Assembly: GCF_013368755.1 (NCBI RefSeq)
Contig: NC_049564.1
Coordinates: 3,418,001-3,482,000, forward strand
Source: Talaromyces rugulosus
Taxonomy: Eukaryota > Ascomycota > Eurotiomycetes > Eurotiales > Trichocomaceae
DNA length: 64,000 bases
Direction: 5' to 3'
Shown here one piece after another: positions 4,400-56,239 of this stretch. The translations under genes and the position numbers were made by a program. Under the pieces are notes generated by a model that was not told the DNA's origin, ran no database searches, and saw only the letters and a program-made list of their open reading frames with translations. Numbering within the stretch: position 1 is the stretch's first letter; every line of letters begins with the position of its first letter.

Positions 4400-4438
4400 T
4401 GTCATAAGAATCGTGAACGCTCAACCAATCGATAAGTA

Positions 4439-6321: not shown

Positions 6322-6334
6322 TAGCAGACACTAC

Positions 6335-6343
6335 TTATATAAG
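6335..6343 (+). promoter_or_regulatory. putative TATA box of family-D LTR
   Basis: TTATATAAG lies inside the LTR and recurs at the equivalent place in the 3' LTR (14713, TTATATAAA). In the reversed copy at 29153 it is altered to CTTACATAAG. Conservation of the site among copies is the only support, and no transcript start can be seen. Confidence 0.4.
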
Positions 6344-7279: not shown

Positions 7280-9400
7280 CTAAAATCTATGACCTTTGAT
7301 GGAACTAGGTCCAAGTTAAAGATATTTTTGGTTAATATAGAAATATATATTGAGGCCAACTAGATTATTAATAATAAAAAAAAATAATCTTTATAGTATT
7401 ATGCTTTATTAATATAATAGTAGAATAGATATAATCTATACTAAGTAAATTATACACTATCAACAAAGATAATTAAGAAACTATTATTAAAAAAACTATC
7501 TTTAAATTACAGTATATTTAAATAGAAATTTAGAGAAGCATTTAAAAATATTAATAAACTATAGACCATAGAAAAATAACTAAAATATCTATAACAGACT
7601 AAATCTACTTAGCAGTTAGTAACTAGATTTTAATAGATAATAACACTACTATACTATAATAATACTATTTAAATCACAATCTTTAAGAATATATTTAAGG
7701 AAGAAACCTAAATAGAATTTATTAAATTTAATTAACCTAATAATATTAATAGATTTATTAAGATAACAGTTAAGATTAATAATAAATTGTTTAAGATTAA
7801 ATAGAAGTAATAGAAATTTTAAAAATAAAAAAAAATTAAAAAATTTTCTTAGTATATCAATATATTAATAAAATAAGGAATCTAATATAATAAAGATAGT
7901 GATGTTAAGATATAACTTAATAATATAATTAATAAGAAAAAAATGGCCAAGTATAAAGAAAATAAAGCTTGTTATAAATATAGATAAAAAAAGCATTTTA
8001 TATAATAATATTAATTAGGATAAAATAAACAGAATAGTAATATTAGCCTTTAGAAAATAATAACAGTCTATTAATAAGTTGCAGCTATATACCAGACAGT
8101 TATAACCCTCTTAGAAAGTAAAGAAAAGTTAGAAAATAAATAGATTGATAAAGTTAAGAACTTTTAAGAACTAATATTAGAAAAAGAAATATATAATGTG
8201 CTTAAGAATTTTAAGTCAGAAGATAGCTTTAGACTATCTAAGGAATGCCTTAGATAGAGTTTAGAAAGAGAATCACCCTAGAAAAAAGATACTAAACTAG
8301 AAAAAGCATAATCTTATCTATATTAAGATTAAGAATACAGAAATACCTATTAACTAATTAGAAAATTTTATAAAGAAGACTAATATAGTAAAACTATTAA
8401 ATAGTATATTAATAATCTTTTATTAGAAAGTGAAAGTCAATATTCTCTAATATTTTAAGATAATAGAAAAAACAGAAAAGTTAATTATAAAGACTTAGAT
8501 TAAGAATTAAATACTTTATAATAATCATAGTTAATAAAAACAACTAATCTTAGAAAAAATACTATAAAAGTGATTAACTAAGTAAATAAAATAATTAAAC
8601 TATTTTAGAAATAACCATTAATTATAAAGAAAGAATAGGATTTAGTCCTAAAAACTAATATAATAGTTCTAAAAATAAAGATTAAGATTCTAAAAACAAG
8701 TAAAAAAGAACTAGAAATAGATAGTAAAGACTTTAAAATAATAAAAAAATTTCTTGAAATTAACTATAAAAAATTAAAATAAGAATATAGTTATAAACTA
8801 TTTAAATTAGTATATTAAGAAGATTTTATTTAAATATACTGATAATATATTCTTAAATATGAAAAATACTATGAGTAGATATTTTATAAATATGATATAT
8901 ATAGAAAAAAGAATATTATATTTATAAATAAATTTAAATATATCTTATTTATTAAAAAAATATAATTATATTATCTAATGTTTAAATATACTAAAAAATA
9001 TTTATATATATACTATCTATAATATAGAGGATAATATTATAGAAAAATATATTAGATACAATATTATAAATTAAAATATCTAACTTATTTTAAAGAAAAA
9101 GAAAAGAATAAATAAAAATTAATAATATTAATAATTATTTATTAATCTATTTTAGACTGTCTGAAGAGCTAGAATAAATATTAGTACTATATAGAAGAAA
9201 TCTGGTATTTTTTCTATAATAATATCAAAACTAACCAGTGCTATACAAAAAAATATCTATATTATGAAGAATAAGTTATCTACACTAATAAAAATTAGAC
9301 TAAAATTATTCTATTATAGAAACAATATCTTGAAAAATATAAAAAGAAATACTATTTTATTACTATAACTATTAAGATAGAAGAAACTGTGATTATTATT
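7280..9400 (+). pseudogene. gag of element D
   Basis: This is structural Gag of a Ty3/gypsy element. The opening block near 7280-7360 reads F-D-G-T-R-S-K-L-K then F-L-V-N-I-E-I-Y-I-E-A, the usual N-terminal capsid motif of fungal gypsy Gag. A zinc knuckle lies at 7970-8011 (A-C-Y-K-Y-R-stop-K-K-H-F-I), in which the second and last Cys codons have become Tyr by G-to-A change. The 1.3 kb between the knuckle and the protease is Lys/Asn-rich, without a motif I can name. There are many TAA/TAG stops. The gag/pol boundary is not resolved. Confidence 0.7.
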
Positions 9401-10281
9401 AAAAGAATAATTAATAGATATGAAGCTAAACTACTCTTTGATTTAGGAATATTAATAAATTATATTAGCGAAGCATATATTAAGAAAAATAATCTAAATA
9501 TATAAAACAAATTTATAGTATATTATATAAAATTTTAAAGGATAAATTATAATTAAAGGATTTATATAATAAATTGAAAATATTATAATTAAATTAGGAG
9601 AACACAAAGAAAGTAGCTAACTAGATTTAAATTTATTTAAATAAAAAGATTTTGATGTTATACTTAGAATAACTTAGCTATAAAAATATAATTCTATTAT
9701 TAACTAGAAATATAAGATGGTATTAATAGACTTAAAGATACTATAAATAGAATAAATAAAGATTAAACTAAACTAGTAGTTAAAGATGAAATATATTAAA
9801 GAAATAAATAAAATAAGCTGATAAATTGAAATATAAAGAAAACTAAAAGAAATCTATAAAAAAGAATTAAAGAAAGTGCTCAATAAATTATTAAAAAAAT
9901 ATTAAAATTTTACTAAATTATTTATAAAAAAGAAATATTGACTATTATAATATAAAAAAAAATATAAAATAGAGATATTTTTTAAAGCAGAAGTATAAAT
10001 ACTATAAATAAAACAATAATAAATCTTATAAGATGAACTCTAAACTATTAAAAAATTTATTAAAAAATTTTTAATAGCTGGTTATATTAGAGAATTAAAA
10101 ATAAAGACTTCTATATAAGTAATATTTATACTAAAATACAATAAATTATTACAAATAGTTATTGACTACTAAAAATTAAATAATATAACTAAAGATAACA
10201 TAAATAAAATACTATACTAAGAACAGAAAAAAGATTTATTATAAGACACAAAAATCATGATAATATTTAATATTAAATAGA

Positions 10282-11180
10282 AGGCCGATAAAGCCGCCAA
10301 GAAAGCTGCGGGGAAGCCCCGAACAGGCAAATACTCGGGCATCTCACTGGCACATGCTCAACGGGCCTGTACCGAAGCTTATAGAGCTGCCAGGGCCAAC
10401 TGGCTTACTGCAAAGCTTGCAAAGCGTGCCCAGCGGGCAAGCCAGGCCTACTATCCCCTCCGGGGATGGAAGCTTGACCCAATATTGGCGAACACCCCTA
10501 AGCACCTAGCGCGGCGATATTATCAGTTCAAGACTGGCCATATACTAATTAGGGTCTATTTACACCGAATTAAGGCCTAAGACTTCTCTAACTGCTTGGG
10601 GTGCTTTAGGGGGATTAAAATAATAAAATACCTTTTTATAAACTGCCGGCAGTGATGCCATTAATAGGAAAAACTATATACTAGCTTAGCTAAAGCGAGG
10701 ATAGAGACTCTATAGAATAAGGAATAGTGCTTTAAAGCATGCCTATTCTAGGATTTAAAGGCCACTGTAGCGTTACTAGCGTTTATAGAGGCTATTAGAG
10801 AGTGAGAGGATAACTAATAAGCCTAGAAGCAGGCCTATAAAACTAATAATTAGGATATTGAGGCCCTGGATGAGGGGAAGTAAGAGGGAAAAGAATAATA
10901 AGTAAAGACAGCCCACTATTATAAGCAACACCTAAACATTAGTAGCTATAAAAAAAGAATAGTGATTATTATCTACTATAAGTCTTTAAATTGTTCTATG
11001 TATATAAGCGGTATAGGATGAGGAAAATATAAGATACCTTGAAAGCCTAGATCTAATAGAAATAGAGGCACCAGTTTATAGAGGACAACCCCTATAAGCA
11101 GGCCTAATCCACACGAATCACTGTCTGTCATAGCCTAGGGCTCGGTATAGACGTTAAATTTGATTAAATAATAATAATAA
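10282..11180 (+). mobile_element. 5'-truncated Tad-like LINE, LINE5
   Basis: This is the last 0.9 kb of the LINE family: the end of the ORF2 RNase H domain (A-D-K-A-A-K-K-A-A), the C-terminal zinc knuckle region, the 3' UTR and an (AAT)n tail. A 14-bp target duplication TAATATTAAATAGA is at 10268-10281 and 11181-11194. It lies inside the RT of element D in the same direction. The first about 230 bp and last about 90 bp are nearly unmutated, while the middle carries heavy RIP-type changes. Confidence 0.92.
10284..10898 (+). pseudogene. LINE ORF2 C-terminal fragment in LINE5
   Basis: The fragment enters ORF2 just after the last RNase H acidic motif, reading A-D-K-A-A-K-K-A-A-G-K-P. It then covers the linker with Y-Y-P-L-R-G-W and the C-terminal cysteine region, where C-L-G-C has become C-L-G-C-F-R and later codons are damaged. 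The stop at 10896-10898 corresponds to the normal ORF2 stop. TAA/TAG codons from 10540 onward show it is non-coding now. Confidence 0.85.
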
Positions 11181-11457
11181 TAATATTAAATAGAGATACT
11201 ATAATCTATAAATAAAAAATAATAATATCTGGAAAATAGTATTCTTTATAGATTTAAAACTATATAAATAGCTAGTAGTGTCTATAAGACTTAAATAGCT
11301 ATTAGTAGAATTTATAAGATTTATAATCTATATTCTATAAGAATATCTTAACCTTTTTATTATAGTATATTTTAATAATATTATAGTCTACTTAAAAGAT
11401 TTTAAAGAATATAATAACTATATATAACTAATTATAATAAAACTTATAAAAATAGAA

Positions 11458-11693
11458 TTAATTCTTAAAATTAAGAAGTATAAATTTGATATTATATAAG
11501 TTAATTATCTAAAAATAGTATATATAACAAATAAACTAGAAATATTAAAAAAAAAATTAAACACTATTCTTGAATAACTAATTTAAATGAATGTTTATAA
11601 TATATAATCTTTTTTTAGATAATTTATATAATATCAAATTTATACTTCTTAATTTTAAGAGTTAATTATCTAAAAAAAGATTATATATTATAA
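11458..11693. repeat. fold-back inverted repeat in element D pol
   Basis: A perfect 28-bp inverted repeat has arms at 11595-11622 and 11666-11693 around a 43-bp loop (11623-11665). The loop is an inverted copy of 11458-11500 with only about two mismatches. The segment 11458-11530 has therefore been copied back in reverse and then forward again. The related copy at 2080-2200 lacks this arrangement. Confidence 0.8.
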
Positions 11694-13080
11694 TACTAAT
11701 GACAGAATTGTTAAAAAAGGATAAACTATTTAATTGAATAATAAGAAGATAATAATTTTTTGAAAATATTAAAGAACTTGTTAAAATTATGTTAATTTTA
11801 TAATTATTTAATTTAAAATTATAAAGTATTCTATAAATAGATATATCTAGATATATTTTTAAAGTAATTTATAAACAAATTAATAAAAAAAAAGAAATAT
11901 AGATTATTATATTCTATTTAAAAAAGTTTATATTAGTAGAAGTTAACTATAATATTTATAATTAAGAATTACTTATAATAGTTTAAGTATTTTAATAATA
12001 ATGATATTATCTCTAAAAAGCAAAATATAAAGTAATTATTAAAAATAATTATTATAATTTAAAATACTTTATAATAATAAAAGAACTATCTAGAAGATAA
12101 ATATAATAGATTAAAAAATTAGCTAAATTTAATTATAGAATTAAATATATTCTAAAAAAATAAAATATAGCTATAGATATATTAAGTAAACAACTAGATT
12201 ATATAATTAAGATAGAATTTCTTAAGATAAACATTCTACAAGAAGAATTAGGAGTTTTATATTATAATTATAATATAATCATTGCAACCACAATAAAAGT
12301 TATTAATAATAATCTATTCTATAAATAAATGCATTAGGAAACTAATAAAGATTAAAAAATACAAAAAGAATTATAAGCTAGATAAGTTATAAAAAATATT
12401 TAGAAAAGCTTAGTAATATAGAATAGAATGATTAGAATACCACAGAATATAACTATAAAAGTTATTTAATAATACCATAATCCTCTTATAAAAGGATATT
12501 AAGAAGTTAAAAAAACAGTTAAAATAATTACTTGAATATTCTACTTTTCTTATATACAAAAAAAGGTTAAAAATTATATTAAAAACTGTAATAAATATAA
12601 TAGAAATAAAACAGTATACTATAAACTCTTTAGAAAAATATAAATACTAAAAGTATTAAAAGAAGTATAGAAAAATATCATTATTAACTTTATCTAAGGA
12701 TTATCATAGTCTAAAGACCTAGTAATAGGAATTATCTATATTAATATTATAATAATAGTTAATTAACTTATAAAATATATTATTTTAGAATTAATATTAA
12801 AAGATATAATAACAGAATAATATATAAAACTTATATTATAAAAAGTTTTTATATAGACCAGATTATTAAATAAATTTATCATAAACTGAGATAAGTTATT
12901 TATATCTAAATATTAGTAGATAATTATAAAGATATATAGAATATATTATAAATTATTAACTATAAATTATTAATAGACTAATAACCAGTCCAAAAGAATA
13001 ATTTAAATAATTAAATAATATTTTTAACACTATTTAGATTAAGAATAAGATAATTAGATAGAACTATTATTATTAGTATA

Positions 13081-13404: not shown

Positions 13405-14106
13405 TATTATTAGTATAGTATATTAAATAATACAGAAAACATTATAATAAAATAAGTTCTATATTTTATAAATCTTAGATGATATCTAAAAATAATATAA
13501 TCTGAAGTACTATAAGAAAAATTATTTAAAGCTATAATAATATAAATTAATAAACTATAGATATTCTATTAGATAATATTAAAAGATATTAAGTAGACTA
13601 AAAACTAAATAAAGATCTATTATAATAAAAAATGTAAAGATACATCAATTCTTAAAAAAAAAAAGAAAGTTTATTTATTATAATAAATAATTAAATAGAA
13701 AAAATTTAATATTCTAAATAAGGGATTAAGTAATAAATTTAATATTATTAAATATAGATCTTTTATAATTTAAAAAAAACTTATTAATAATAATTATAAA
13801 CTTTAATTATTAGTAAGAATAAAAGTGTATCTAGTATTTTATATTTTATTATTAAAATTAACCAAAATCTAGAAAATAATAATAATAAAACAATTAAAAA
13901 TAAATATAAAGTTAAAAATATTTTAAAAAAAAAATTAGTAAAAAAAAGAATTTTTTATTTAATTAACTAGAAAGGATACAGACTCTAAATATAATTTATA
14001 GAAACTAGTTAGGTACTTAAATTGCTTTAAAAAAATTTAAGTATTTTATTAGAAAGAAACTTAAAAAGGATATAATCAAACTTATTATTAGATAATATAG
14101 AAAACT

Positions 14107-14544
14107 CCTAGATAATAGCTATAATTATTTTATTTAATTTTTATAGCTTAATCTTTTATTTCTATTCCTTCTTTTTTTTTTTTTTCTAGATGCTTTAACT
14201 CTTCTATATCTTTAATATTTATTTAAATAAATTAACTGGCATGCTTCTAAAGTAGTTTTTACTGCTTTTTAAGATAAAAAAGGTTTATTAGAGTTATTTT
14301 TTTTATTTTTTTTAATTTTCTTTTAAATAGTTAATAACTTCTTCAAAGCCAAATCTAAAGATGTTATCTTAATATAATAACTATAATTACTGTAAATATA
14401 TTTATTATAATACTTTAAAATTTCTAATTTAATGTATAACTTTCTAGATAAAGTACACTTACTGTAAAGGAAAAAAAGAATAATCTTGGTTTTAATAATA
14501 TAAATAAATAGATTATTTTTATTAATATTTTGCTTTAATGATAT
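14107..14544 (-). pseudogene. antisense accessory reading frame in element D
   Basis: Between the chromodomain and the 3' LTR, on the strand opposite gag-pol, lies the damaged counterpart of the frame at 29331-29803. The start codon is ATA here (14544-14542) where the other copy has ATG. The next residues, L-K-Q-N-I, agree in both. The downstream part keeps the basic run R-K-K-K-K-K near 14170. It is more mutated than the D3 copy and would not be recognised alone. I do not know its function. Confidence 0.55.
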
Positions 14545-14659: not shown

Positions 14660-15291
14660 TGTTATAAAAATTAATAATACTTAATTAATAGATATGACAG
14701 CGGACACTAGTTATATAAATAAAGGTTATTAGATATTCTTATAGGGTAGAATCTCTGATTATATCTGTAAAGAAGAAAATATCTATATTTATACTCTGCA
14801 TAGAATGACTTATTAAATGAAAGTCTGTGTTATATAGAAAGACTTTCTTTATAAAAGAAGGTTCTATATAAAAAAAGATTTTATACAGAAAGAATCCTCA
14901 CAAAGAAAGAGTCTCTCTATAGAAGAGCCTTTTATATAGAAAGATATATCTTATAAAAGATAAAATATATAACTGCATAGTCAACATAGCAAGACTATGC
15001 TAGAATAGCTATAACTATAATATAATCAAGTAGAGCTTAACTATACTTACTATATTTAAGATTAACTATATAAAGATACTTATTTATTATTATATATCTA
15101 GTTTATTATATTTTATTCTTTTAAATAAATAGTATATTATTATTATTTTTTAATATATTTTGCAGCTTATTATTATGATAGTACTCTATTTATTCTAGGA
15201 TTGCCTTACATAACCTTCTTATCTTGCCTTCTGTTAGTAGAATACCCACCCTGATTCACATCTTGGTGACGAGTTGTTGAACCGATTGACA
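14660..15291 (+). repeat. 3' LTR of element D
   Basis: This 632-bp repeat begins TGTTATAAAA and ends CCGATTGACA. Its last about 130 bases are GC-richer and match the reverse complement of 28558-28690 closely. It follows a polypurine tract. The sequence on its right belongs to family C in minus orientation, not to the fragment that flanks the 5' LTR. Confidence 0.85.
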
Positions 15292-28557: not shown

Positions 28558-29215
28558 TGTCAATCGGTTCAACAACTCGTCACCAAGATGTGAATCGGGG
28601 TGGGTATTCTGCTAACAGAAGGCAAGATGAGAACGTTATATAAGACAATCCTAAGATAATATAAAGTACTATCGCAATAATAGGCTGCAAAGTATATTAA
28701 AGAGTAATAGTAATATACTATTTACTTAAGAGAATAAAACACAATAGGCTAGATATATAATGGTAAATAAATATCTTTATATAGTTAATCCTAAATATAA
28801 TAAGCATAGTTGATGCTCTATTAGCTATATTATTAATATATCTAAATATAGTCTGGCTATATTTAGCTATACTCCCTATATAGTCACATACTATGGTATA
28901 TTTTCACTAATATAATGCATGCGCATTATTAGGATACATCTACACTAGGTGTACTTACATAGGATAAATAGTTCTATACTAAATATATTTATATAGAAAT
29001 AATACAGCTATTCTATTTAAGATATATATCTACTTAATATATCTTCACTAAATTAGTATATCCGCACTATCTAGATTATATAAGTTCCTATATAGTCACT
29101 TCTATCTTTATTTTTATAATTAGCAAGTCTACTTTATAGGAGTTTTAGGCAGCTTGCTTATGTAAGTAATATCCGCTATTTATTAATTAGCTAAATGTTT
29201 ATGATTCTTATGATA
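28558..29215 (-). repeat. family-D LTR, copy D3 (3' LTR, reversed)
   Basis: This 658-bp repeat begins TGTCAATCGGTTCAAC, the reverse complement of the 15291 end, and ends CTTATGATA. Because the next sequence to the right is the polypurine-side interior (29216 onward), this is the 3' LTR of a minus-strand element. It interrupts LINE4 after ATTGGGG. The matching duplication should lie outside the window. Confidence 0.85.
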
Positions 29216-29803
29216 ATCCCCTTCTTTAAAGACTGGTATCCTAACAGTTATATAAATAGTCATAGGTCCCCTGTCGTATAAATAGGCTAATTTCTTTTTT
29301 ATTAACATTCTTAGTAGTGATATTCTGACTATGTTATTAAAGCAAAATATAAATATAAAAAACCTTTAGCTACATATCAAATAGTCTAGTGCTATTCTGC
29401 TAATTCCTTATTATTGTGCAGTCCAAGAGAATATTTATATTAAATCTAAAATTTTAAGTCGCTATAATGAGTATATTAATTTTGGTCACTATAAGTATCG
29501 CGATATAGCCTTATCTGATCTAATATAGAAAAAGCTTATTAAGGCTTAAGAAAAGATTAAAGCTGATAATAATTAGTTAAATACTAAGCTTAAGGCTTTT
29601 CTTGCTAAACGGGCTTGTTTATATAAACAAAGAAAACTTCTCTAAAAGTGCGCTAGAGAATTTATTTAAACAGATATAAAGAATATAGAGGAGTTAAAAT
29701 ATTTAGAGAAAAAGAAAAAGAAAAAATAGAAATAAGAAGCTAAGCTATAAAAATCAAACAAAATAATTGTAGCTATCATCTAGGAGTTTTCCATATCATC
29801 TAA
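29216..29803 (-). mobile_element. family-D interior, 3' part, copy D3
   Basis: The sequence next to the D3 LTR corresponds in reverse to 14100-14659 of element D. It includes the polypurine tract (reverse complement of ATCCCCTTCTTTAA) and the antisense reading frame. It is cut at 29803 by the LTR of copy A. The remainder of D3 must lie outside the window, beyond A. Confidence 0.8.
29331..29803 (+). pseudogene. antisense coiled-coil reading frame of family D
   Basis: This frame opens with ATG and runs 157 codons to where copy A interrupts it, on the strand opposite the gag-pol of D3. All eleven interruptions are TAA or TAG and none is TGA, as expected if CAA/CAG codons were hit by RIP. Reading them as Gln gives one continuous protein. 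The front half has I-L-S-R-Y-N-E-Y-I and H-Y-K-Y-R-D-I. The back half is Lys/Glu/Leu-rich (E-E-L-K-Y-L-E-K-K-K-K) and looks like a coiled coil. Base composition is less AT-shifted than its surroundings. The function is unknown. An accessory element protein or a captured gene are both possible. Confidence 0.65.
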
Positions 29804-30077
29804 TGTGACGTGCCTTTTCCAAAGATATTCGATTCCTATCTAGGGGTGCGATTCTCTAAAACAACAAGCATGGGAAAGAAATCTAACTACTAAGACCTGC
29901 AGGAAGGTTTTATCTTATGTACTTAGGTAACCAGCTTGACCCTTTATAGCCTTAGAATAAGGCTATCCCCAGATCTGACACCGCAGGTTAAGATTAATAC
30001 TTTTTTTATCTAAGGCCTTCTATCCGGCTACAAGACTGCTTCTATCCTTAGAGATAGTCTTAAGCTCAGTTGTTATA
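29804..30077 (-). repeat. 3' LTR of copy A
   Basis: At 274 bp it is the same length as the two LTRs of copy C. It begins TGTGACGTGCC and ends with RIP-altered GTTGTTATA in place of GCCGTCACA. The first half is nearly unmutated and the second half is strongly C-to-T and G-to-A shifted. The polypurine tract lies just after it on the minus strand. It interrupts D3, and the left flank TCTAA is the expected target duplication to look for beyond 64000. Confidence 0.9.
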
Positions 30078-30272
30078 TTATCTCTCCTTTTAGAAATGTT
30101 TACCCTTAAATATTGATTACTAGTCTATTATTATTTATATATTTTTTAATAAATTGATTTTTCTTTATAGCTTTTATCTATATATCTAATTAATGCGGCA
30201 GACCTAGCTTCTTAGAGTTAGTATTATAGAATAATTTTAATGTTAATAAAGTATTTGAAAAGTACCTTATTA
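30078..30272 (-). pseudogene. copy A pol 3' end (chromodomain tail)
   Basis: This aligns with 56210-56404 of copy C: the last codons of pol after the chromodomain. The target site of LINE1 (AAGTACCTTATTA at 30260-30272) ends the piece. Confidence 0.8.
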
Positions 30273-30554
30273 TTATTATTATTATTTAATCAAATTTAAC
30301 GTCTATACCGAGCCCTAGGCTATGACAGACAGCGATTCGTGTGGATTAGGCCTGCTTATAGGGGTTGCCCCCCATAAGCCGGTGCCTCTACCCCCATTGG
30401 ATCCAGGCTTTCAAGGTATCTTGCACTTTCCTCACCCCATGCCGCTTATATGCGCAGGACGATTCGGGGGCTTATAGTGGGTGGCAACCACTACCCCCTC
30501 CTTATGGCCACTAACGTTTGGGCGTTGCCTACAATAGCGGGCCGCCCCTGCCCG

Positions 30555-33500
30555 CTATCCTTCCCCCTCTCGCTCTCCCTCATCCAGGGCCTCAATGCCC
30601 CAATTATCAGTCTTATAGGCCTGCTCCCAGGCCTGTTGGTTATCCTCTCGCTCCCTAATGGCCCCTATAAACGCCAGCAGCGCTGTAGTGGCCTTTGGGT
30701 CCTGGAATAGGCGTGCTTCGGGGCACTGCTCGCTATCCTGCGGGGCCTTTACCCCCGCTTCGGCCAAGCCGGCATATAGTTTTTCCCGCTGGTGGCACCA
30801 CTGTCGACAGTTTGTAAGAAGGTGTCTTACCGTCTCAGTCCCCCTAGAGCACCCCAAGCAATTAGGGGAGTCTCGGGCCTTGATTCGGTGCAGATAGGCC
30901 CCGATTGGGGTGTGGCCGGTCTTGAATTGGTAATACCGCCGCGCCAGGTGCTTGGGGGTGTTCGCCAACATTGGGTCAAGCTTCCATCCCCGGGGGGGAT
31001 AGTAGGCCTGGCTTGCCCGCTGGGCACGCTTTGCAAGCTTTGCAGCAAGCCAGTTGGCCCTGGCAGCTCTATAAGCTTCGGTACAGGCCCGTTGAGCATG
31101 TGCCAGTGAGATGCCCGAGTATTTGCCTGTTCGGGGCTTCCCCGCAGCTTTCTTGGCGGCTTTATCGGCCTCTTCGTTGCCTGGGACCCCCTTATGGCCT
31201 GGCACCCAGCATATAGTAACCCTGCGGCCGGTGGCCTGCAGTTCCTTGGCTAGATCATGTGCCCGCAGCGCCAGGGCTTGGCCAGGGCCTGGCTGGGTAT
31301 GCTGAAGCCTGCCTATAGCGGCTTGAGCATCGAGAAACACCCTAATTGGCCCTCTAAGATTCTCTGCCAGCGCCCACTCTAGGGCTTCGACTACTCCTAT
31401 TAGTTCTGCATCAAAGACTTCGAAGCCTGCGCCCAGGGGAGCTAGGCGCGACCTCCAGGGGCTAATAAGTGGCTTATAAGCTACCGCAGCGCCTACGCGC
31501 TGATCGTCTAACCTGGAACCGTCTGAGTAAAGGTCAGTGTTCCCTATCCCACTTAGGGGGTCTGAGGCTAATTGCATAGCGGTTTCAGGGGAGTCTATCC
31601 TGAAATCTAGTGGTATAGACCTATTACTAGGCTCTATTGTACGCTCAAAGCCCTGGGAGGGGTCGGCGGTCAAGGCCTCTCGTAGCCTGCGGGCCAGGCC
31701 CATGCCCAGCTTCCAGGGGCCTCGGCGGGTTGGTGTTGCCCAAGCTCGGTCTTCTAGCGGCTGCTCTCCAGGCTGTGCATGGGCGTCTCCCTCCCTAAGC
31801 GTTATGGGGAGTATTTCTGCTGCTGGATGCCCCTGGGGAAGTCCTAGGAGTCTCAGGGCATACCGCCGCTGTTTACTATCTAATAGGGCCTCTGCTGGTT
31901 CCAAAGCTGCCTCCCTTATAAGCGGTCCTAATAGGATGGACTTCAGCATGCCTGTGACTGCCCGGGCCTGGTTATTAATTAGGCCCTACAGTCCTTCTAG
32001 GCAGTTCTTTTGCCCATACCACCAAAGCTCGGCCCCATAAAGCGCCACTGACTGCGCGGTGGCCTTTTAGATTCGCCATGCCAGGCCTGGGGGGAGCCCC
32101 TGGGCCTTGCACAGTGCCCGCACTCGTCTTTCAGTATTTTGACCTTTTTGCAGGCAGTACTTATAGTGGGCTTTGAGAGTAAGCTTTGGATCTAGTAAGA
32201 CCCCTAACCACCGGATGGCTGTTGGGGAGAATGCCACTAAAGCGTCTCCTACCTGCACCCTAGCTTCCTGGACCTGATTTTTATGTTCCCTGCTGGTGGC
32301 CCTAGAGAATAGGATAGCCTCTGTCTTTTTAGGGTCGAATTTAACGCTATTTGCCAGTCCCCACTCAATAGCAGCTTTTGCCGCTGCTTCTAGCTGCCTG
32401 CAGATCTCAGAGACCGAGCTTCCCTGGGCTACCAGGCCTATGTCATCGGCATAGGACAGGGCCTTGATCCCTAGCACCTGCTATTCCATAGCCTAAAACA
32501 CACCCCGGATATAGATAAGAAAGAGGATTGGGGAGACCAGTGAGCCCTGGGGCAGCCCTGAGTCAATAGGCTGTTCAGGGGCTTTATAACCGTCAATTAC
32601 GAGGCTGACCCTTCTATTTGTAAGGAAGGATAAGGTCCACCTTATAAAGTCATTATCCAGGCCTACAGCTTCCATAGCCTCACTAAGCTTATAGGGGTCA
32701 ACATGGTCGAAGGCCCCCATAACATCAATAAAGATAGTGCCTGTGAGAAGCTTTTGAGTCCATCCCTCATGCACTATTTACACGAGGCAGGCCACCGCGT
32801 CAATAGCCCCACGGCCCCGCCTGCACCCCATTTATCCAGGGTGTAAAGCCCCCTAGGCCTCACACCAGTCCGCTATAAGGCCTGCAGCCAGCTTCTCAAC
32901 AACCTTGCCCAGGCAGCTAAGCAAGCTTATCACCCTCCAGGCCTTCACCTGGGTGTAATCAGGCTTCCCTGGCTTCCGAAGTAGGATGCCTTTAGCGGTC
33001 TTCCAGACCCCTGGGTGCACCCCAAGCCGAAAGCACTGCCTAGCCATCCCTATAATTCAGAGTGAGTCTAGTGCCCAGAGTAGCCGGCATACTTTAAAAT
33101 TAAGCCTGTCAGCCCCCAGAGCTTTCTTAATGCTCTGGCTGAATAGGGCCTGATGCACCCGCTCTAGCATTATAAGCATATAGGCCTGTCCACCTAGCAG
33201 CTCCCCAGGAGGGGAGCTACAGAGGGCGTTAGGAAATGCCATTTCCCTGATTAGAGCTTCTTTATCGGCCATGGTAGTGGCAGGGGGAGCCCCTAGATCC
33301 GGGCCTTGGAGTGCTGGGGTGGTGGGATTAGTCCGTGGCTTAGTGTACTGTAGGGCTATCCAACACCTATTAGGATCTCCTGGAGAAGGCTTTTCCAGGC
33401 CATCCCTAGGGCCTTTGGGAAAAGGGTTCCCAGTGGGGTTCGAACCTTTTTTCCACTCTTCCTTCCCCCCAGGGCCTCCCTCAGCAAGGAAGACCTCCCA

Positions 33501-34604
33501 GCAGGTCCTTTTAGCCGCCTTTATTTCATGGTAATAAGCGGTTCTTGCAGCCTTGAATTCGGTGTCGGTACAGGCATGGGCCTGCCACCACTTGCGGGCT
33601 GCAGCCCATAAGCTCCGGGCTTGCCGCAGCTCTGGCTTCCACCACCGCTTAGAGCATGCACAAAGCCGTACTGCTTTGGCATGCCTATCGAGTACGCTGG
33701 TTAGGGTGTCCTGCACCCAATTGGCCTCTCTAGCAAGGTCTTCCTCGGTGCATTGATCACTAAGAGGGGGGTGGCCTACAGCCTCTGAGGCCCAAGCTGC
33801 TGTGGCCAGCTTTAGGGCTTCCTCGTTTACCTGCAGAGCTTCTATCTGCCACCCAGTAATCTCCCCGGAGATTCCTCCTGGGGGGGGTTCTAGGGCTTCC
33901 CAGGCTAGGACGATAAGCTCATGGTCAGATGTTGTAGGCTTATCCTTATCCACCTCCCAGGCTTGCAGAGGCCCTAGGGTTGGCGAGGATAACGCTAAAT
34001 CAATAATTGACACCCCCTCGGTCTTCTTATAGCGTGTGGCCTCCCCCAGTGGGTTATTAACATATAGTGAGTGCCGCTCTATAAGCTGTTCCAAGGGCTC
34101 AGCGTTAACCCGGCCCTTGGCCAGTGGGTTCCACGAAGGGCTATGGGCGTTGAAATCACCCACTAATAGGCACCTACCCACTATAAGCAGGTCCCAGTCT
34201 GCGTCCTCGATGGCCCGGCGTCATCTAGGGAAGGCCCCTTGCCACCGGTAACTGGCCCCAATCCACACATCATAGCAGTTGACTATTCTAGTGCGTCGGG
34301 GGGCATGCCCGCTAATTATTGGTGCTTCCCATATGTCCAGGGCCTGTAAATAGGGGTGGTCTACTAAATCAGTGCAGTTCTCGACCCTAACCGCTCCTAT
34401 AAGGTCTTTACGGATGGCCATAAGCACCCGTTGATCCCGCTTCTCCCCCCCTGGCCAGTACAGCAGATAGCCTGGGTGGGAGAAGTCATAGGCAATATAA
34501 GGCTCTTGCAGGCATATAATGCCTATTTGCCGCTCTATCCCCGCTTCTAGAGCCCCTAAGGTTGCGGGGTAGGTACGGCCGCAATTATGTTGAATAATCA
34601 ACAT
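30555..34604 (-). pseudogene. LINE1 ORF2: APE endonuclease, reverse transcriptase, RNase H
   Basis: The 1,349-codon frame starts at ATG 34604. Endonuclease motifs are L-Q-E-P-Y-I (catalytic Glu about 34), G-D-F-N (about 150) and S-D-H (226-228). RT motifs are F-I-D-V-M-G-A-F-D (about 625), G-L-P-Q-G-S and Y-A-D-D (718-721). RNase H shows Y-S-D-G-S (Asp about 1028), D-A-E-L (Glu about 1067), F-L-D-A (about 1092) and E-A-D-K (about 1147), then a CX2CX8HX4C knuckle at about 1249-1266. In-frame stops at 34221, 33057, 32853, 32493, 32067 and about 31990 are mostly CAG/CAA-to-TAG/TAA. The last 464 codons are open. The enzyme nicks target DNA and primes cDNA synthesis there. It is probably inactive as it stands, but only point changes separate it from an intact frame. 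Confidence 0.93.
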
Positions 34605-36516
34605 TAATAGGGGCTGCAGCTCCAGGCGTTGGTGTTGGACACGGGGATGAGTACGGTAGGGGTGATGTCCCTGGGGCATCTTCCATAGCGTCATCGACCT
34701 CCCTAAGCTTTGGGGCTTGGGGGGCGTCCTGGGTAGTGGTTGGGGGAGAAGCCTCCTCAGCAACGCCTTCCCATTCAGTCCATTCAGGGGGGGGAGGGGG
34801 CATAACGACCTCTACGCCAGGGAAGCGCTTATGGAGTCGCCGGCGGGCCTCCCGAAGCTTGGGGCACCCTGGGGAATCAGCCTGGTGCTTCCCCCCACAG
34901 TTGCCGCATTTAGTGGGTGCATGCAGGCATGGGTGGCCTGTTTGGGCCCTGCAGTCTAGCATGTTGCAGGTGTGCTCTTGGGCTTCATGGGCGCCAGCAC
35001 ACACGGTGCAGAGTGGTGGTCAGGTGCCGCAGCCTCTATAAGTTCGGTGGCCAATGCCGCAGCATCGGGTGCAAACGGTATCTTTATCCACTTTGTGATA
35101 GGGGCTGGTAGGGTGCCTGTTGCCCCCGAAGCATACGCCCCGGGCGAGTAGCCTGTGGGCGTTATCTAGGCCTCCTACTGTTATAATGATAGTAGAGAAA
35201 CGCTGCTTATTAGTCTGGATAGCCGCTATCGGCTTGATCCAGGTAGGGTTTCTCATTAGGGTGCATGTGCCCCCTAATTCAATTTCTTCCCTGGCTAGGC
35301 CTGGCCCTGAGGCGCTATAGCGGGCTACCGGCACCGCATGCACCTTAATCTTGTGCCACTGTTGGTCTGCTTCCACTGAGATGACTGCGGGGTCGACCCG
35401 GTGGCAGGCAGCCACTAATAGGTCCTTATAGGCTGGTAATAGCGAGCCTACGGTGCTTCCTTGGTCCAATAGGGCTGAGATAGCCCCTGATTCGGTGTAA
35501 TTGGCGTCTATTACCCTGGCGAAGTTCGGGAAGCCTACCTGGGCTAGGCAGCGGTTAAGCTGCAAGATGACATCGGCTTTAGACTTTCTAGAGGCGGTGC
35601 GGCCATTTTCACGCCTAAATATAAGCCTGCGGTCTCCCTTATTGCTTCCGCGAATAGGCTTCAGGCTCCCTGGGTCCATTTGGACTTTTGGGGGCTGGTT
35701 CGGGGAGTAAGCCCGTTTTTTTGTAACGATTTGCCACTCCTGGGCATTGCTGGCCGCTATATCGGCCCACTGGGGGCCTGCTGCGGGCTTCACCCCAGGG
35801 GGTGGTTTTGATATCGGGGGTGAGGCTCTGCGTGGCTCTATGGGCTTAGCGGCCCTATTCGGGTTAGCTTGGGGGCCATGGGCGACCTCTGCAAACGTCG
35901 TCCCCTGGGATGGCAGAGGCTGTCGTGGGCCCTGGCGGTCGCCCCCTGACGATAGGGGCTTTAGGGGGTGATTTGGGGCGTTCAGGGAGGCCTGTTGAGC
36001 TTCTAGGGTTGAGAAACGGCGCTCCAGAGCGCCCAATTGGCCTATGAGGCGCTGCTCCATAGCCTCTACCAGAGAGGTCATATAGGCCTTCATAGCGGCC
36101 ATCTCCGCGTGCAGCGCGCTATTGCTGCTTGCAAAGTGGCCTAATAAGGCCTGTTCCATGTCCTTGTAGGCTGGGCCGATTAGGGCCTTCATGGGGGCTC
36201 TTTCTGCCCCGTCAGGGCTGTGTTCCTGTAGTCTCTTCCCTAGAGTTTTAGGTGCTTCCTGGGAGCCTGGCACGCTGCTTAGGGGGGGAAACAACTCCCT
36301 AGGGTTGATTTCCAGGCTAGGCAAGAAGCCCTCGCTCTGAGGGACTGTTGCACTTGCCTCGGGGGGCGCTGGTGGTGCTGTCCCCGCTGGGGTGCCTATA
36401 TAGGCCCCTACGGGGTTCACCAGACCTAGCGCCTGCCCCCCTGGGTCTAGGGGGTGGTTGTCGATATTGGGGAGTCCAGGGGCCATAGCGAAGCCCTGGA
36501 TGCCTTCCAGTAGCAT
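34585..36516 (-). pseudogene. LINE1 ORF1: gag-like RNA-binding protein, one stop
   Basis: The 643-codon frame starts M-L-L-E-G-I-Q-G-F, with a single in-frame TGA (35022-35020, probably from CGA) at codon 499. A Pro-rich N-terminus is followed by a likely coiled coil at about 118-178 (A-M-K-A-Y-M-T-S-L-V-E-A-M). A basic central domain (R-R-L-I-F-R-R) comes next, then three CCHC-type knuckles near 482-496, 503-517 and 537-551; the last two follow CX2CX3HX6C. The protein would coat LINE RNA. It is open for 498 codons before the stop, which would remove two of the three knuckles. It overlaps ORF2 by 20 nt. Confidence 0.93.
34587..34604 (-). promoter_or_regulatory. hairpin at ORF1 stop / ORF2 start of LINE1
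   Basis: The RNA ATGTTGA-TTAT-TCAACAT forms a 7-bp stem with a 4-nt loop. The ORF2 start codon lies in the 5' arm and the ORF1 stop TAA overlaps the last base of the 3' arm. The position suggests translational coupling (termination and re-initiation), which is known for some other LINEs. The role is inference. Confidence 0.55.
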
Positions 36517-36555
36517 TGAATTTCAAAAGGTTGATTTTTGATTTTCCCGGTGGGT

Positions 36556-37013
36556 AAGTACCTTATTAAATACTATACTAGATCTAAATCCTTGCCTAAC
36601 TAGTTTACTTAATAATATAGCTTCTTCTAATATATCTAGGAGTCTAAGATCTTATTAATTTCCTATTCTAAATTTCTATTGACTTAGAGCTTAGAACATT
36701 TCTTTTTTAGTTAACCAATAAAAGGCTCAGTTAAAGCAGCATAGTGGAGTTTATTTAGAAAAAAAATACAGTATACTTATATATTTTATAGTAAATCTAA
36801 TTTAAAGGTATGTCCTATCTTATACAGTATCTTATATAACTCTTTAAATTAATAGCCTAGCTTTTTATTTAATTATTTTATATTCTATTCTTTATTACTA
36901 ATATAGATATAGTTATTAACTTTAAAGTCTATTTTCTATCTATGTTTATTTATTTGCTATTACTATCTGCTTTATATTTCTATAATATTATTATAGACAT
37001 AGTCCTATATATA
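36556..37013 (-). pseudogene. copy A pol segment (chromodomain and integrase end)
   Basis: Between LINE1 and LINE2 the family-C element resumes and aligns with 56393-56848 of copy C: the chromodomain and the integrase C-terminus. The sequence is AT-shifted and full of stops. The target duplications of the two LINEs (36556-36568 and 36999-37013) form its ends. Confidence 0.85.
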
Positions 37014-37054
37014 TACCCCGCCGGGAAAATCAAAAATCAACCTTTTGAAATTCA

Positions 37055-38986
37055 ATGCTACTGGAAGGCATCCAGGGCTTCGCTATGGCCCCTGGACTCC
37101 CCAATATCGACAACCACCCCCTAGACCCAGGGGGGCAGGCGCTAGGTCTGGTGAACCCCGTAGGGGCCTATATAGGCACCCCAGCAGGGACAGCACCACC
37201 AGCGCCCCCCAAGGCAAGTACAACAGTCCCTCAGAGCGAGGGCTTCTTACCTAGCCTAGAAATCAACCCTAGAGAGTTGTTTCCCTCCCTAAGCAGCGTG
37301 CCAGGCTCCCAAGAAGCACCTAAAACTCTAGGAAAAAGACTACAGGAACACAGCCCTAATAGGACAGAAAAAGCCCCCATAAAGGCTCTAATCAGCCTAG
37401 CCTACAAGGACATAGAACAGGCCTTATTAGACCACTTTACAAACAGCAATAGCGCGCTACACACAGAGATAGCCACTATAAAGGCCTATATAACCTCTCT
37501 GGTAAAGGCTATAGAGTAGCACCTCACAGGCCAATTAAGCGCTCTAGAGCACCATTTCTCAACCCTAGAAGCTCAACAGGCCTCCCCGAACGCCCCAAAC
37601 CACCCCCTAAAGCCTCTATCGTCAGGGGGCGACCGCCAGGGCCCACAACAGCCTCTGCCATCCCAGGGGACGACGTTTACAGAGGTCGCCCATGGCCCCC
37701 AAGCTAACCCGAATAGGGCCGCTAAGCCCATAGAGCCACGCAGAGCCTCACCCCCGATATCAAAACCACCCCCTGGGATAAAGCCCGCAGCAGGCCCCTA
37801 GTAGGCCAATATAGCGGCCAGTAATACCTAGGAGTGGCAAATCGTTATAAAAAAACGGGCTTACTCCCTGAACCAGCCCCCAAAAGTCCAAATGGACCCA
37901 GGGAGCCTGAAGCCTATTCGCGGAAGCAATAAGGGAGACCGCAGGCTTATATTTAGGCGTGAAAATGGCCGCACCGCCCCTAGAAAGTCTAAAGCCAATG
38001 TCATCTTGCAGCTTAACCGCTGCCTAGCCCAGATAGGCTTCCCGAACTTTACCAGGGTAATAGACGCCAATTACACCAAATCAGGGGCTATCTCAGCCCT
38101 ATTGGACCAAGGAAGCACTGTAGGCTTGCTATTACCAGTCTATAAGGACCTATTAGTGGCTACCTGCCATCGGGTCGACCCCGTAGTCATCTTAGTGGAA
38201 GCAGACTAACAGTGGCACAAGATTAAGGTGCATGCGGTGCTGGTAGCCCGCTATAGCGCCTCAGGGCTAGGCCTAGCCAGGGAAGAAATTGAATTAGGGG
38301 GCACATGCACCCTAATGAGAAACCCTACCTAGATCAAGCCGATAGCGGCTATCCAAACTAATAAGCAGCGTTTCTCTACTATCGTTATAACAGTAGGAGG
38401 CCTAGATGACGCCCACAGGCTACTCGCCCGGGGCGTACGCTTTGGGGGCAACAGGCACCCTACCAGCCCCTATCACAAAGTGGGTAAAGACACCGTTTGC
38501 ACCCGATGCTGCGGCATTGGCCACCGAACTTATAGAGGCTGCGGCACCTAACCACCACTCTGCACCGTGTGTGCTGGCGCCTATGAAGCCTAAGAGCACA
38601 CCTGCAACGTGCTAGACTGCAGGGCCCAAACAGGCCACCCATGCCTGCATACACCCACTAAATACAGTAACTGTAGGGGGAAGCACTAGGCTGATTCCCT
38701 AGGGTGCTCTAAGCTTTGGGAGGCCTGCTAACGACTTTATAAGTGCTTTCCTGGCATAGAGGTCGTTATGCCCCCTCCCTCCCCTGAATGGACTGAATGG
38801 GAAGGCGTTGCTGAGGAGACTTTTCCTCCAATTACTACCCAGGACGCCCCCCAAGCCCTAGAGCTTAGGGAGGTCGATGACGCTATAGAAGATGCCCTAG
38901 GGACATCACCCCTACCGTACTCATCCCCGTGTCCAACACCAACGCCTGGAGCTGCAGCCCCTATTAATGTTGATTATTCAACATAA
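37055..38986 (+). pseudogene. LINE2 ORF1 (gag-like)
   Basis: This is the same 1,932-nt span as LINE1 ORF1, starting at an intact ATG. Codons 1-154 are open (to 37519) and the next stops are mostly TAG. The coiled-coil region, the central R-R-L-I-F-R-R block at about 37940, and the knuckles at 38490-38700 are still readable. The end, I-N-V-D-Y-S-T, is identical to LINE1. Confidence 0.9.
38967..38984 (+). promoter_or_regulatory. hairpin at ORF1 stop / ORF2 start of LINE2
   Basis: Identical in sequence to the LINE1 hairpin at 34587-34604. In the damaged LINE4 (18567-18584) both arms have changed together to ATATTAA and TTAATAT, so the stem is kept even there. Confidence 0.5.
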
Positions 38987-41900
38987 TTGCGGCCGTACCT
39001 ACCCCGCAACCTTAGGGGCTCTAGAAGCGGGGATAGAGTGGTAAATAAGCATTATATGCCTGCAAGAGCCTTATATTGCCTATGACTTCTCCCACCCAGA
39101 CTATCTGCTGTACTGGCCAGGGGGGAAGAAGCAGGATCAACGGATGCTTATAGCCATCCGTAAAGACCTTATAGGAGCGATTAGGGTCGAGAACCGCACT
39201 GATTTAGTAGACTACCTCTATTTACAGGCCCTGGACATATGGGAAGCACCAATAATTAACGGGCATGCCCCCCGACGCACTAGAATAGTCAACTGCTATG
39301 ATGTATGGATTGGGGCCAGTTACCGGTGGCAAGGGGCCTTCCCTAGACGACGCCGGGCCATCGAGGACGCAGACTGGGACCTGCTTATAGTGGGTAGGTG
39401 CCTATTAGTGGGTGATTTCAACGCCCATAGCCCTTCGTGGAACCCACTGGCCAAGGGCCGGGTTAACACCGAGCCTTTGGAACAGCTTATAGAGCGGCAC
39501 TCACTATATGTTAATAACCCACTGGAGGAGGCCACACGCTATAAGAAGACCGAGGGGGTATCAATTATTGATTTAGCGTTATTCTTGCCAACCCTAGGGC
39601 CTCTGCAAGCCTGGGAGGTGGATAAGGATAAGCCTATAACATCTGACCATGAGCTTATCGTCCTAGCTTGGGAAGCCCTAGAACCCCCCCCAGGAGGAAT
39701 CTCCGGGGAGATTACTGGGTGGCAGATAGAAGCTCTGTAGGTAAACGAGGAAGCCCTAAAGCTGGCCACAGCAGCTTAGGCCTCAGAGGCTGTAGGCCAC
39801 CCCCCTCTTAGTGATCAATGCACCGAGGAAGATCTTGCTAGAGAGGCCAATTGGGTGCAGGACACCCTAACCAGCGTACTCGATAGGCATACTAAAGCAG
39901 TACGGCTTTGTACACGCTCTAAGCGGTGGTAGAAGCCAGAGCTACAGCAAGCCCAGAGCTTATAGGCTGCAGCCCGCAAGCAGTGACAGGCCCATGCCTG
40001 TACCAACACCGAATTCAAGGCTATAAGAACCATTTATTACCATGAAATAAAGGCGGCTAAAAGGACCTACTGGGAGGTCTTCCTTACTGAGAGAGGCCCT
40101 GAAGGGAAGGAAGAGTGGAAAAAAGGTTCGAACCCCACTGGGAACCCTTTTCCCAAAGGCCCTAGGAATGGCCTGGAAAAGCCTTCTCCAGGAGATCCTA
40201 ATAAGTGTTGAATAGCCCTACAGTACACTAAGCCACAGACTAATTCCACCACCCCAGCACTCCAAGGCCTGGATCTAGGGGCTTCCCCTGCCACTACCAT
40301 AGCCGATAAAGAAGCCCTAATCAGGGAAATAGCATTTCCTAACACCCCCTATAGCTCCCCTCCTGGGGAGCTGCCAAGTGGACAGACCCACATGCTTATA
40401 ACGCCAGAGCGGATACATTAGGCCCTATTCAGCCAGAGCATTAAGAAAGCTCCAGGGGCCAACAGGCTCAATTTTAAAGCATACCGGCTACTCTAGGCAC
40501 TAGACTCACCCCAAATCATAGGGATAGCTAGGCAGTGCTTTCAGCTTAGGGTGCACCCAGGGGCCTAGAAGACCACTAAAGGCATCCTACTTCAGAAGCC
40601 AAGGAAGCCTGATTACACCCAGATAAAGGCCTAGAAAGTGATAAGCTTGCTTAGCTGCCTAGACAAGGTTGTTAAGAAGCTGGCTGCAGGCCTTATAGCG
40701 GACTGGTATAAGACCTAAAGGGCTTTACACCCTAGACAAATAGGGTGCAGGCGGGGCCGTGGGGCTATTAACACGGTAGCCTACCTCATGCAAACAGTAC
40801 ACAAGGGATAGACTCAAAAGCTTCTCACAGACACTATCTTTATTAACGTTATAAAGGCCTTCAACCATATTGACTTCTATAAACTTAGTAAGGCTATAGA
40901 AGCTACAGGCCTGGATAATAACCTTATAAAGTAGACCTTATCCTTCCTTACAAATAGAAGGGTCAGCCTCATAATTGACGGTTATAAAGCCTCTAAACAG
41001 CCTATTAACTCAGGGCTGCCCCAAGGCTCACCGGTCTCCCCAATCCTCTTTCTTATCTATATCCAGGGTGTGTTTCAGGCTATAGAACAGCAGATGCCAG
41101 AGATCAAGGCCCTGTCCTATGCCGATAACATAGACCTAGTAGCCCAGAGAAGCTCAGTCTCTAAGATCTACAGACAGCTAGAAACAGCGGCAAAAGCTGC
41201 TATTAAGTAGGGACTGGCAAATAGCGTCAAATTCGACCCTAAAAAGACAGAGGCCATCCTATTCTCTAAGGCCACCAGCAGGGAACATAAAAATCAGGTC
41301 CAGGAAGCTAGGGTGCAGATAGGAGACGCTTTAGTGGCATTCTCCCCAACAGCCATCCAGTGGTTAAGGGTCTTACTAGATCTAAAACTTACCCTCAAAG
41401 CCCACTATAAGTACTACCTACAAAAAGGTCAAAATACTGAAAGACAAGTACAGGCACTGTACAAGGCCCAGAAGCTCCTCCCAGGCCTGGTATAACGAAT
41501 CCAAAAGGCCACTATACAGTCAGTAGCGCTTTATAGGGCTGAGTTTTGGTAATATAGGTAAAAGAACTGTCTAGAAGGACTACAGAGCTTAATTAATAAT
41601 CAGGCCTAGGCAGTCACAGGCATGCTAAAGTCCACCCCATTAGGACCGTTTATAAGGGAGGCAGCTTTGGAACTAATAGAGGCCCTATTAGATAGTAAAC
41701 AGCGGCAGTATGCCCTAAGACTTCTAGGACTCCCCTAAAGGCATCCAGCAGCAGAAATACTCTTTATAATACTTAGAGAAAGAGATATCCATGCACAGCC
41801 TGAAAAGCAGCCGCTAGAAGACCAAGCTTAGGTAATACCAACCTACTGAGGCCCCTGGAAGCTAGGCATAGGTTTGGCCCGTAGGCTATAAGAGGCCTTA

Positions 41901-43016
41901 ACCGCCAACCCCTCCTAGGGCTTTAAATATACAATAGAGCCTGGTAATAGATCTATACTACTAGATTTTAGGATAGACTTTTTTAAAACTGCTATGCAAT
42001 TAGCCTCAGACTCCTTAAATAGGATAGGGAATACTGACCTTTACTCAGACGGTTCCAGGTTAGATGATCAGTGTATAGATGCTATAGTAGCTTATAAGCT
42101 ACTTATTAGCCCCTAAAGATCATATCTAGCTTTTCTAGATATAGGCTTTAAAATCTTTAATATAGAACTAATAGGAGTAGTTAAAGCCCTAAAGTGGGTA
42201 CTAGCAGAGAATCTTAAAGAGCTAATTAGGATATTTCTTAATACTTAAGCCGCTATAGACAGGCTTCAGTATACCCAGCCAGGCCCTAGCTAAGCCCTAG
42301 TGCTACGGGCACATGATCTAGCCAAAGAACTGCAGGCCATTGGCCGTAGGGTTACTATATGCTGGGTGCCAGGCCATAAGGGGGTCCCAGGCAACAAAGA
42401 GGCCGATAAAGCCGCCAAAAAAGCTGCAGGGAAGCCTTAAACAGGCAAATACTCGAGCATCTCACTGGCATATGCTCAACGGGCCTGTACCAAAGCTTAT
42501 AGAGCTGCTAGGACCAACTGGCTTACTATAAAGCTTGTAAAGCGTGCCCAGCAGGCAAGCCAGGCCTACTATCCTCCCCGGGGATAGAAGCTTGACCCAA
42601 TGTTGGCGAACACCCCCAAGCATCTAGCGCGGCAATATTACCAGTTCAAGACTAGCTACACACCAATTGGGGCCTATTTGCACCGAATTAAGGCCCGAGA
42701 CTTCCCTAATTGCTTGGAGTGCTTTAGAGGGACTAAGACGGTAAGACACCTTCTTATAAACTGTCGACAGTAGTGCCACCAGCAGGAAAAACTATATGCT
42801 GGCTTGGCTGAAGCGAGGATAAAGGCTCTACAGGATAGCGAGCAGTGCTCCGAAGCACGCCTATTCCAGGACCCAAAGGCCACTACAGCGCTGCTGGCGT
42901 TTATAGGGGCCATTAGGGAGCGAGAGAATAACTAACAGGCCTGGGAGCAGGCCTATAAGACTGATAATTGGGGCATTGAGGCCCTGGATGAGGGAGAGCG
43001 AGAGGGGGAAGGATAG
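38967..43016 (+). pseudogene. LINE2 ORF2 (endonuclease, RT, RNase H)
   Basis: The span is 4,050 nt with no net indel relative to LINE1. Endonuclease G-D-F-N (about 39410) and S-D-H (39640) are intact. The RT box reads Y-A-D-N instead of Y-A-D-D (about 41120), a G-to-A hit on the catalytic Asp. RNase H Y-S-D-G is kept (about 42046). The C-terminal cysteines are partly lost. There are dozens of TAA/TAG stops. Confidence 0.9.
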
Positions 43017-43531
43017 CGGGCAGGGGCGGCCCGCTATTGTAGGCAACGCCCAAACGTTAGTAGCCATAAGGAGGGGGTAATGGTTGCCACCCACTATAAG
43101 TCCCCAAATCGTCCTGCGCATATAAGTGGCTTAGGGCGAGGAAAGTGCAAGATACCTTGAAAGCATGGATCCAATGGGGGTAGAGGCACCGGTTTATAGG
43201 GGGCAACCCCTATAAGCAGGCCTAATCCACACGAATCGCTGTCTGTCATAGCCTAGGGCTCGGTATAGACGTTAAATTTGATTAAATAAATAAATAATAA
43301 AATAGTCCTATATATACTTTAAATATTATATCTATGTTTAGGCTTTTTTCTTATTTAGTATATAGCTTCTAGGTAGTATTGATAGCATCTAATTAAATAA
43401 TATTCAAAGAATATAATTCTTTTTTATCTTAAATAAAGATATCTTTATAGATTTCTATAACAGTGACATAGCTATAAAGTTAATAATTAGTAAATATTTT
43501 AACTAGTCATCTATTGCAAAGTTAATATATA

Positions 43532-56209: not shown

Positions 56210-56212
56210 TCA

Positions 56213-56223
56213 CCCCCCCCTTC
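56213..56223 (-). other. polypurine tract of copy C
   Basis: On the minus strand GAAGGGGGGGG is followed by TGA and the LTR start TGTGACG. It fixes the orientation of the element. Confidence 0.8.
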
Positions 56224-56239
56224 AGAAACGCTTGCCTTT

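Follow-up and report, generated by a model that had tools for sequence, protein, structure and literature searches.

Known antisense genes between pol and the 3' LTR

Antisense accessory genes are known from a number of retrotransposons with long terminal repeats (LTRs), and their function was called unknown in a 2020 review, as far as its available passages go (PMC7264820). Described here is such a gene in Talaromyces rugulosus. It was first met as a reading frame at positions 29331 to 29803 of a 64,000-nucleotide stretch of contig NC_049564.1 (positions 3,418,001 to 3,482,000), referred to below as the window. Boty elements have an antisense gene at the same place, brtn (Zhao et al., 2011, Virology, as cited in PMC8365987 and PMC7264820). 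It is the additional open reading frame of BcGypsy1 (PMC8365987). A Boty-like element with a chromodomain gag-pol carries brtn-106 (PMC4227169), and a Monilinia transcript resembles truncated Pol and BRTN (PMC5987419). Like the gene described here, brtn lies antisense between pol and the 3' LTR of a chromodomain gag-pol carrier, a likeness by place and carrier that is drawn from published descriptions. The available passages on brtn make no mention of a zinc cluster or of a pairing with the U3 part of the LTR.

The plant aORF-3R genes (Grande gene23, RIRE2, and Retand TRP28) have the same place and orientation, but they encode other proteins, and no Zn2Cys6 cluster is described for them in the available parts of the sources (PMC7264820, PMC11963269). 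Retand TRP28 is thought to bind DNA (PMC7264820, PMC11963269). The antisense TRP28 genes are discussed, as is HBZ of HTLV-1, in PMC11963269, in whose available text the word "zinc" is absent.

In architecture, the closest systems are regulators of the Gal4/Put3/Hap1 type. These share with the T. rugulosus protein the six-cysteine spacing, two short cluster helices and a long helix directly after them, the helices being predicted in T. rugulosus. Unlike these regulators, the T. rugulosus protein has only 184 amino acids and is borne by a retrotransposon, and its DNA-contact loop presumably differs from the Gal4-type loop. HBZ is a bZIP regulator encoded at the 3' end, and the copy number control protein of Ty1 comes from the sense strand and acts on capsids. 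HBZ is likewise the antisense-encoded product of a retroelement, and is itself nuclear, according to the available text (PMC11963269); it differs in being bZIP with no zinc cluster. Ty1 has a self-encoded control protein whose evolution involved recombination, but that protein is derived from gag (PMC7055915, available parts).

A Gal4-like architecture and a U3 pairing were not found for such genes in searches of an open-licence library. The kind of gene is already known, and these two properties are the part that those searches did not turn up. The preliminary description of the window had called such a gene rare in fungal chromoviruses. This was too strong, because the Boty antisense gene was published in 2011 and relatives of the present gene occur across several ascomycete genera.

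Intact copies and the carrier element

The assembly (35.76 Mb in six contigs) gave 42 matches with the DNA query and 54 with the protein query, both counts being lower bounds. The whole frame is open in at least 17 of the 54 protein matches. Eleven of these encode 184 amino acids (type A) and six encode 177 (type B); 36 others have stops and one is a stop-free fragment of 62 amino acids. The DNA is identical in all 11 intact A copies and in five of the six intact B copies, and the B protein is 81% identical to the A protein. A elements have 657-bp LTRs (TG...CA) and B elements 612-bp LTRs, both with 5-bp target duplications. The LTR pairs are identical over their full length in the three A elements compared (657/657) and in the four B elements (612/612). 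The intact A and B elements are fresh.

The strand opposite the gene encodes a capsid, zinc knuckle, protease, integrase and chromodomain, and the carrier is, by these domains, a chromodomain Ty3/gypsy element (chromovirus). In intact copies the gene sits antisense to gag-pol, between pol and the 3' LTR. The arrangement in one of them, L039, is as follows.

1584-2240: 3' LTR
2241-2355: leader
2356-2910, + strand: antisense gene
2828-8637, - strand: gag-pol frames

From the inner edge of the 3' LTR to the start of the gene there are 115 nt in A and 114 nt in B, with the polypurine tract (identified by eye) in between; in type A the gene ends tail to tail with pol, overlapping its final 83 nt. 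A ATAAATAG box is conserved 78-79 nt before the ATG in both types. The leader with this box, which lies outside the LTR, is a candidate antisense promoter. Two fresh A elements, L039 and L041, keep the antisense gene intact, but their gag-pol is broken into two open frames, and the break lies at a different site in each.

On every contig, the region around 3.0-3.7 Mb holds many decayed copies and is presumably the centromere. At least one, perhaps two, further gene types with other N-halves, heavily changed by repeat-induced point mutation (RIP), are represented by L060, L061 (C3:3555584, C1:3067409) and L059; the LTR of the first of these types fits neither U3 type. The stop-free 62-amino-acid fragment (L062, C6:805982-806155) lies in a stretch of 41% guanine-cytosine (GC) content with a short LTR-resembling piece nearby (by eye), and is a solo remnant or a host fusion.

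The frame in the window

The copy in the window retains only the 3' LTR, the leader and the frame.

28558-29213, - strand: 3' LTR of this copy, with a type A U3, from LTR comparison; gag-pol sense would be the - strand
29214-29330, + strand: leader from the 3' LTR edge to the ATG, with the reverse complement of the polypurine tract (by eye) and the ATAAATAG TATA-like box
29331-29803, + strand: remnant of the antisense accessory gene, type A, first 157 codons with 11 stops, cut at 29803, from comparison with intact copies
29804-30270, no strand assigned: LTR-like repeat from another element family, by which the gene is truncated; a further copy is at 55936-56401

As first described, the frame opens with an ATG at 29331 on the + strand and runs for 157 codons with 11 in-frame stops, each TAA or TAG (six TAG and five TAA). 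It ends at 29803 because the LTR-like repeat starts at 29804; the full-length intact gene of type A has 184 codons. Of the aligned residues, 92 of 157 equal those of the intact type A protein. On the DNA level there are 115 differences in 473 aligned bases, and 111 of them are C>T or G>A. The changes fell on 41 of 56 CpA, 45 of 64 CpG, 9 of 60 CpT and 16 of 48 CpC sites. The frame was mutated by RIP, since the differences are mostly of this kind and most frequent at CpA and CpG. The preliminary description had traced the stops to RIP of Gln codons. Gln codons account for only five of the 11 stops; five others stand at Arg codons and one at a Trp codon of the intact copy. That the frame runs against gag-pol is directly seen in the intact copies, while in the window, where no pol match is left beside the frame, it follows from the orientation of the LTR. 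The window frame is the relic of a genuine chromovirus (Ty3/gypsy) accessory gene that was killed by RIP.

Evidence for a protein gene

For the whole gene (177 codons), the nonsynonymous divergence (dN) between A and B is 0.143 and the synonymous divergence (dS) 0.946, a ratio of 0.151. The first 108 aligned codons, a region chosen after the divergence had been seen, have changes at 59 of 71.7 synonymous sites and at 53 of 252.3 nonsynonymous ones (dN 0.246, dS saturated), with 28, 18 and 66 differences at codon positions 1, 2 and 3. The last 69 codons hold four differences only. Among the six frames, the + frame of the gene has the lowest dN and the highest dS, and it is the sole one open throughout in both types. 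The ratio exceeds 1 in both shifted + frames and in two - frames. It is 0.193 in the third - frame, a shadow of shared third positions.

Database searches gave 28 protein matches to the single sequence, 153 to a first profile and 205 to a profile of distant members. The homologous proteins reach down to about 30% identity. Genus names were taken from the 120 matches listed for each of the two profile searches. Among the matches listed are Talaromyces, Aspergillus, Pseudogymnoascus, Fusarium, Colletotrichum, Pyricularia, Cordyceps, Hirsutella and Beauveria, and no Botrytis name. These relatives are known as protein entries; the antisense position described here is that of the T. rugulosus copies.

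The preliminary description had proposed a real accessory gene, to be given up if intact copies were closed or unconstrained in this frame. Instead, at least 17 copies are open, the comparison of A with B gives strong purifying selection and a position-3 excess in the frame of the gene, and homologous proteins exist. The frame is almost certainly a real protein gene. A reading of the + strand as the 3' end of a DNA-transposon transposase was dropped; the integrase and chromodomain of pol are on the other strand, and the frame is a separate gene.

A protein resembling a minimal Gal4-type regulator

Of the first 121 family proteins, 90 have the strict pattern C-x2-C-x6-C-x5-12-C-x2-C-x6-8-C, as do 143 of 215 overall. 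One of the proteins with this spacing, P0001, is 99% identical to type A. In Pfam, Zn_clus is the sole family matched by more than one of 89 members (13 of 89 at E up to 0.01, best 0.001). No domain of another family was found by Pfam in the 184-amino-acid type A protein. A profile-profile comparison with 12 host clusters gave an E of 2.6e-4 and a probability of 42. Searched with the profile, the PDB sequences gave 17 matches; the two best were GAL4 (E 0.016 and 0.019), and eight of the 17 were of Gal4 type. Seven of eight Foldseek matches, all of them weak, were to Hap1, Pho7, Put3 or Leu3.

The predicted structure, a monomer model, has helices at residues 28-33 and 47-52 within the cluster, then a single helix at 64-153. 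Block means of the predicted local distance difference test (pLDDT) along this helix are 78 to 98, up to residue 150. The last 50 residues have a negative net charge in all 89 members, and the cluster a positive one in 88 of 89. A Lys/Glu-rich helix had been noted at the end of the window frame; the Glu-rich character is found in the intact protein, while the Lys-rich look is partly a product of RIP.

In Gal4, the loop between cysteines 2 and 3 touches DNA. Across the present family this loop varies (2.2-3.2 bits), in contrast to the conserved residues 45-51 (0-1.5 bits). Its variability is only compatible with diversifying specificity, because equal variation is seen at other positions, among them 42, 54 and 60.

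With its six-cysteine cluster, long predicted helix and acidic tail, the protein looks like a minimal Gal4-type regulator, and a Zn2Cys6-like DNA-binding architecture is very probable. The earlier guess that it could be a regulator thus gains support from the cysteine pattern, the predicted helix and the weak but specific Gal4-type matches.

The U3 type and the zinc-cluster half go together

One fresh A and one fresh B element were compared end to end. Most windows of this alignment are 92-100% identical. Identity is only 40-60% at LTR positions 251-600 (U3, in gag-pol sense) and 50-72% at about positions 801-1100, the first half of the gene. Between these, the windows at 601-800 (LTR end, polypurine tract, leader and first codons) are 84-100% identical. 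The window that follows directly on the diverged gene half, at 1101-1150, is 88% identical. Local matches of the A element to four B elements agree with this pattern.

A RIP-tolerant comparison was made on 31 copies, namely 30 genome loci and a second copy of the gene in the window. Three were left unscored, two having no LTR in the stretch and one being of a third type. In all 28 scorable copies the U3 type equals the type of the N-half (15 A/A and 13 B/B). Cross scores between the U3 types are at about the level of shuffled sequence, with one exception (L036, 1.62). The fresh copies (11 A and six B) cannot be taken as independent; with each set counted as one, the agreement rests on five A and eight B. 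Both types include fresh members and old, decayed ones. Thus, the U3 and the zinc-cluster half co-segregate, and in the aligned pair the strong divergence between A and B is confined to these two parts.

Each U3 type has an array of sites. In gag-pol sense, U3 A has ten GTG-N6-CAC dyads at positions 149-320, with a pitch of 15-20 bp; the maximum same-arm dyad count in 500 shuffles was five. U3 B has no comparable palindrome excess in the same test. It has a 17-bp tandem array of 4.8 copies, found with Tandem Repeats Finder. Both arrays are upstream of TATATAAGG, the gag-pol TATA box, which is at position 433 in A and at 391 in B (the latter counted in a stretch beginning three bases before the LTR). 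Genome-wide specificity was counted on pairs of sites. The strict A pair was located at 25 places, each of them in a U3 A copy, and the B pair, with up to one mismatch, gave 34 matches, each in a U3 B copy. CATAG repeats are common to both U3 types (LTRs of L039 and L043), largely adjoining the sense TATA box on its upstream side, and are possibly host factor sites.

Proposed mechanism and alternatives

The explanation that we favour, with a probability of roughly 0.5, is that of an antisense-encoded Gal4-like regulator that acts on its own LTR. A small promoter lying between the polypurine tract and the ATG would drive transcription of the gene in the direction opposite to gag-pol. The long helix would form a coiled coil and dimerise the protein. 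The dimer would then bind the array of repeated sites that its own LTR carries in U3, immediately upstream of the sense TATA box, and by this binding control the transcription of gag-pol. The U3 array and the zinc-cluster half would be a specificity pair, swapped as a block among otherwise nearly identical elements; the two would be exchanged together because a mismatched pair would not work. For this scheme we infer zinc binding, DNA binding, dimerisation, the target, the sign of the effect and expression. Binding of the protein to its own U3 array, judged from sequence, is a possibility at slightly less than even odds. As to the sign of the effect, there is a slight preference for activation over repression, given the acidic tail and the place of the sites upstream of the TATA box.

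Three points weigh against this explanation. The type A protein itself has no Zn_clus match in Pfam. The fold and profile matches to Gal4-type proteins are all weak and below threshold. Linkage alone could give the pattern of U3 and N-half, because the distance is only about 200 bp.

This last point leads to the strongest alternative, which is nonetheless doubtful. The gene could be an antisense gene of the brtn kind whose DNA- or nucleic-acid-binding protein acts elsewhere, possibly as a chaperone or in nuclear import or integration targeting, with the U3 co-segregating through its 200-bp proximity. The tight linkage fits, and the leader scores indicate that the leader between the diverged parts is itself somewhat type-specific. 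In many LTR elements, moreover, no part evolves faster than U3. Between two far more diverged neighbours, the 200-bp island still has about 89% identity, which speaks against an effect of proximity, although a strongly constrained island would explain this as well. The dense private site arrays in both U3 types are a further point against it.

An unlikely alternative is self-restriction. Here the protein would be a repressor or copy-number controller and the types of U3 and N-half would be immunity groups, as in Ty1 copy number control or with phage repressors. The two types do coexist, both of them represented by old as well as fresh copies, and by analogy the antisense-encoded HBZ is nuclear and critical for the life cycle of HTLV-1, according to the available text (PMC11963269). 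However, the acidic tail in 89 of 89 members and the sites upstream of the TATA box, and not over it, fit activation at least equally well.

It is very improbable that the antisense RNA matters as double-stranded RNA against gag-pol, the reading frame being incidental. The 83-nt overlap with pol would allow it, and such a model is discussed for plant elements (PMC7264820, available passages), but it is largely refuted by selection on the protein level, with dN far below dS, conserved cysteines and homologues to about 30% identity. A chance open frame or a shadow of another coding frame, as might be suspected from RIP-rich sequence that yields stretches with TAA/TAG stops only and from the low ratio in one antisense frame, is scarcely credible, being ruled out by the selection pattern and the six-frame comparison and opposed by the database homologues.

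The second copy and other features of the window

The preliminary description had reported the same frame, more damaged, in a second element. This copy is real and runs on the - strand from 14544 to 14009, but it belongs to the other type, B. The features of this element, D1, are these.

6322-13076, + strand: 5' LTR and gag-pol of D1, both decayed, with an interruption at about 10268-11185
14009-14544, - strand: second copy of the gene, type B, ATG lost, with stops and gaps
14661-15291, + strand: 3' LTR of D1 (start approximate), type B U3 at 14724-14915

In the D1 copy of the gene, 175 of 187 differences are in the RIP direction. Elsewhere in the window, two 6.3-kb arms with 92% complementarity flank 462 bp at 30282-43289, which looks like a head-to-head meeting of two elements from another family. 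The GC content at positions 1-3000 is merely 6-7%.

Significance

It may be proposed, tentatively and from sequence comparison, that the antisense-encoded Gal4-type regulator and the U3 array are a lock-and-key module, and that swaps of this block would split near-identical elements into regulatory groups. Such groups can be likened to the immunity types of phages. With a Gal4-like architecture and an exchangeable target array paired to it in the LTR, a gene of unknown function becomes a testable proposal. If it is true, fungal retrotransposons carry private transcription circuits. Such circuits could keep families apart and escape control by the host, and host genomes could receive from them a regulator together with its sites.
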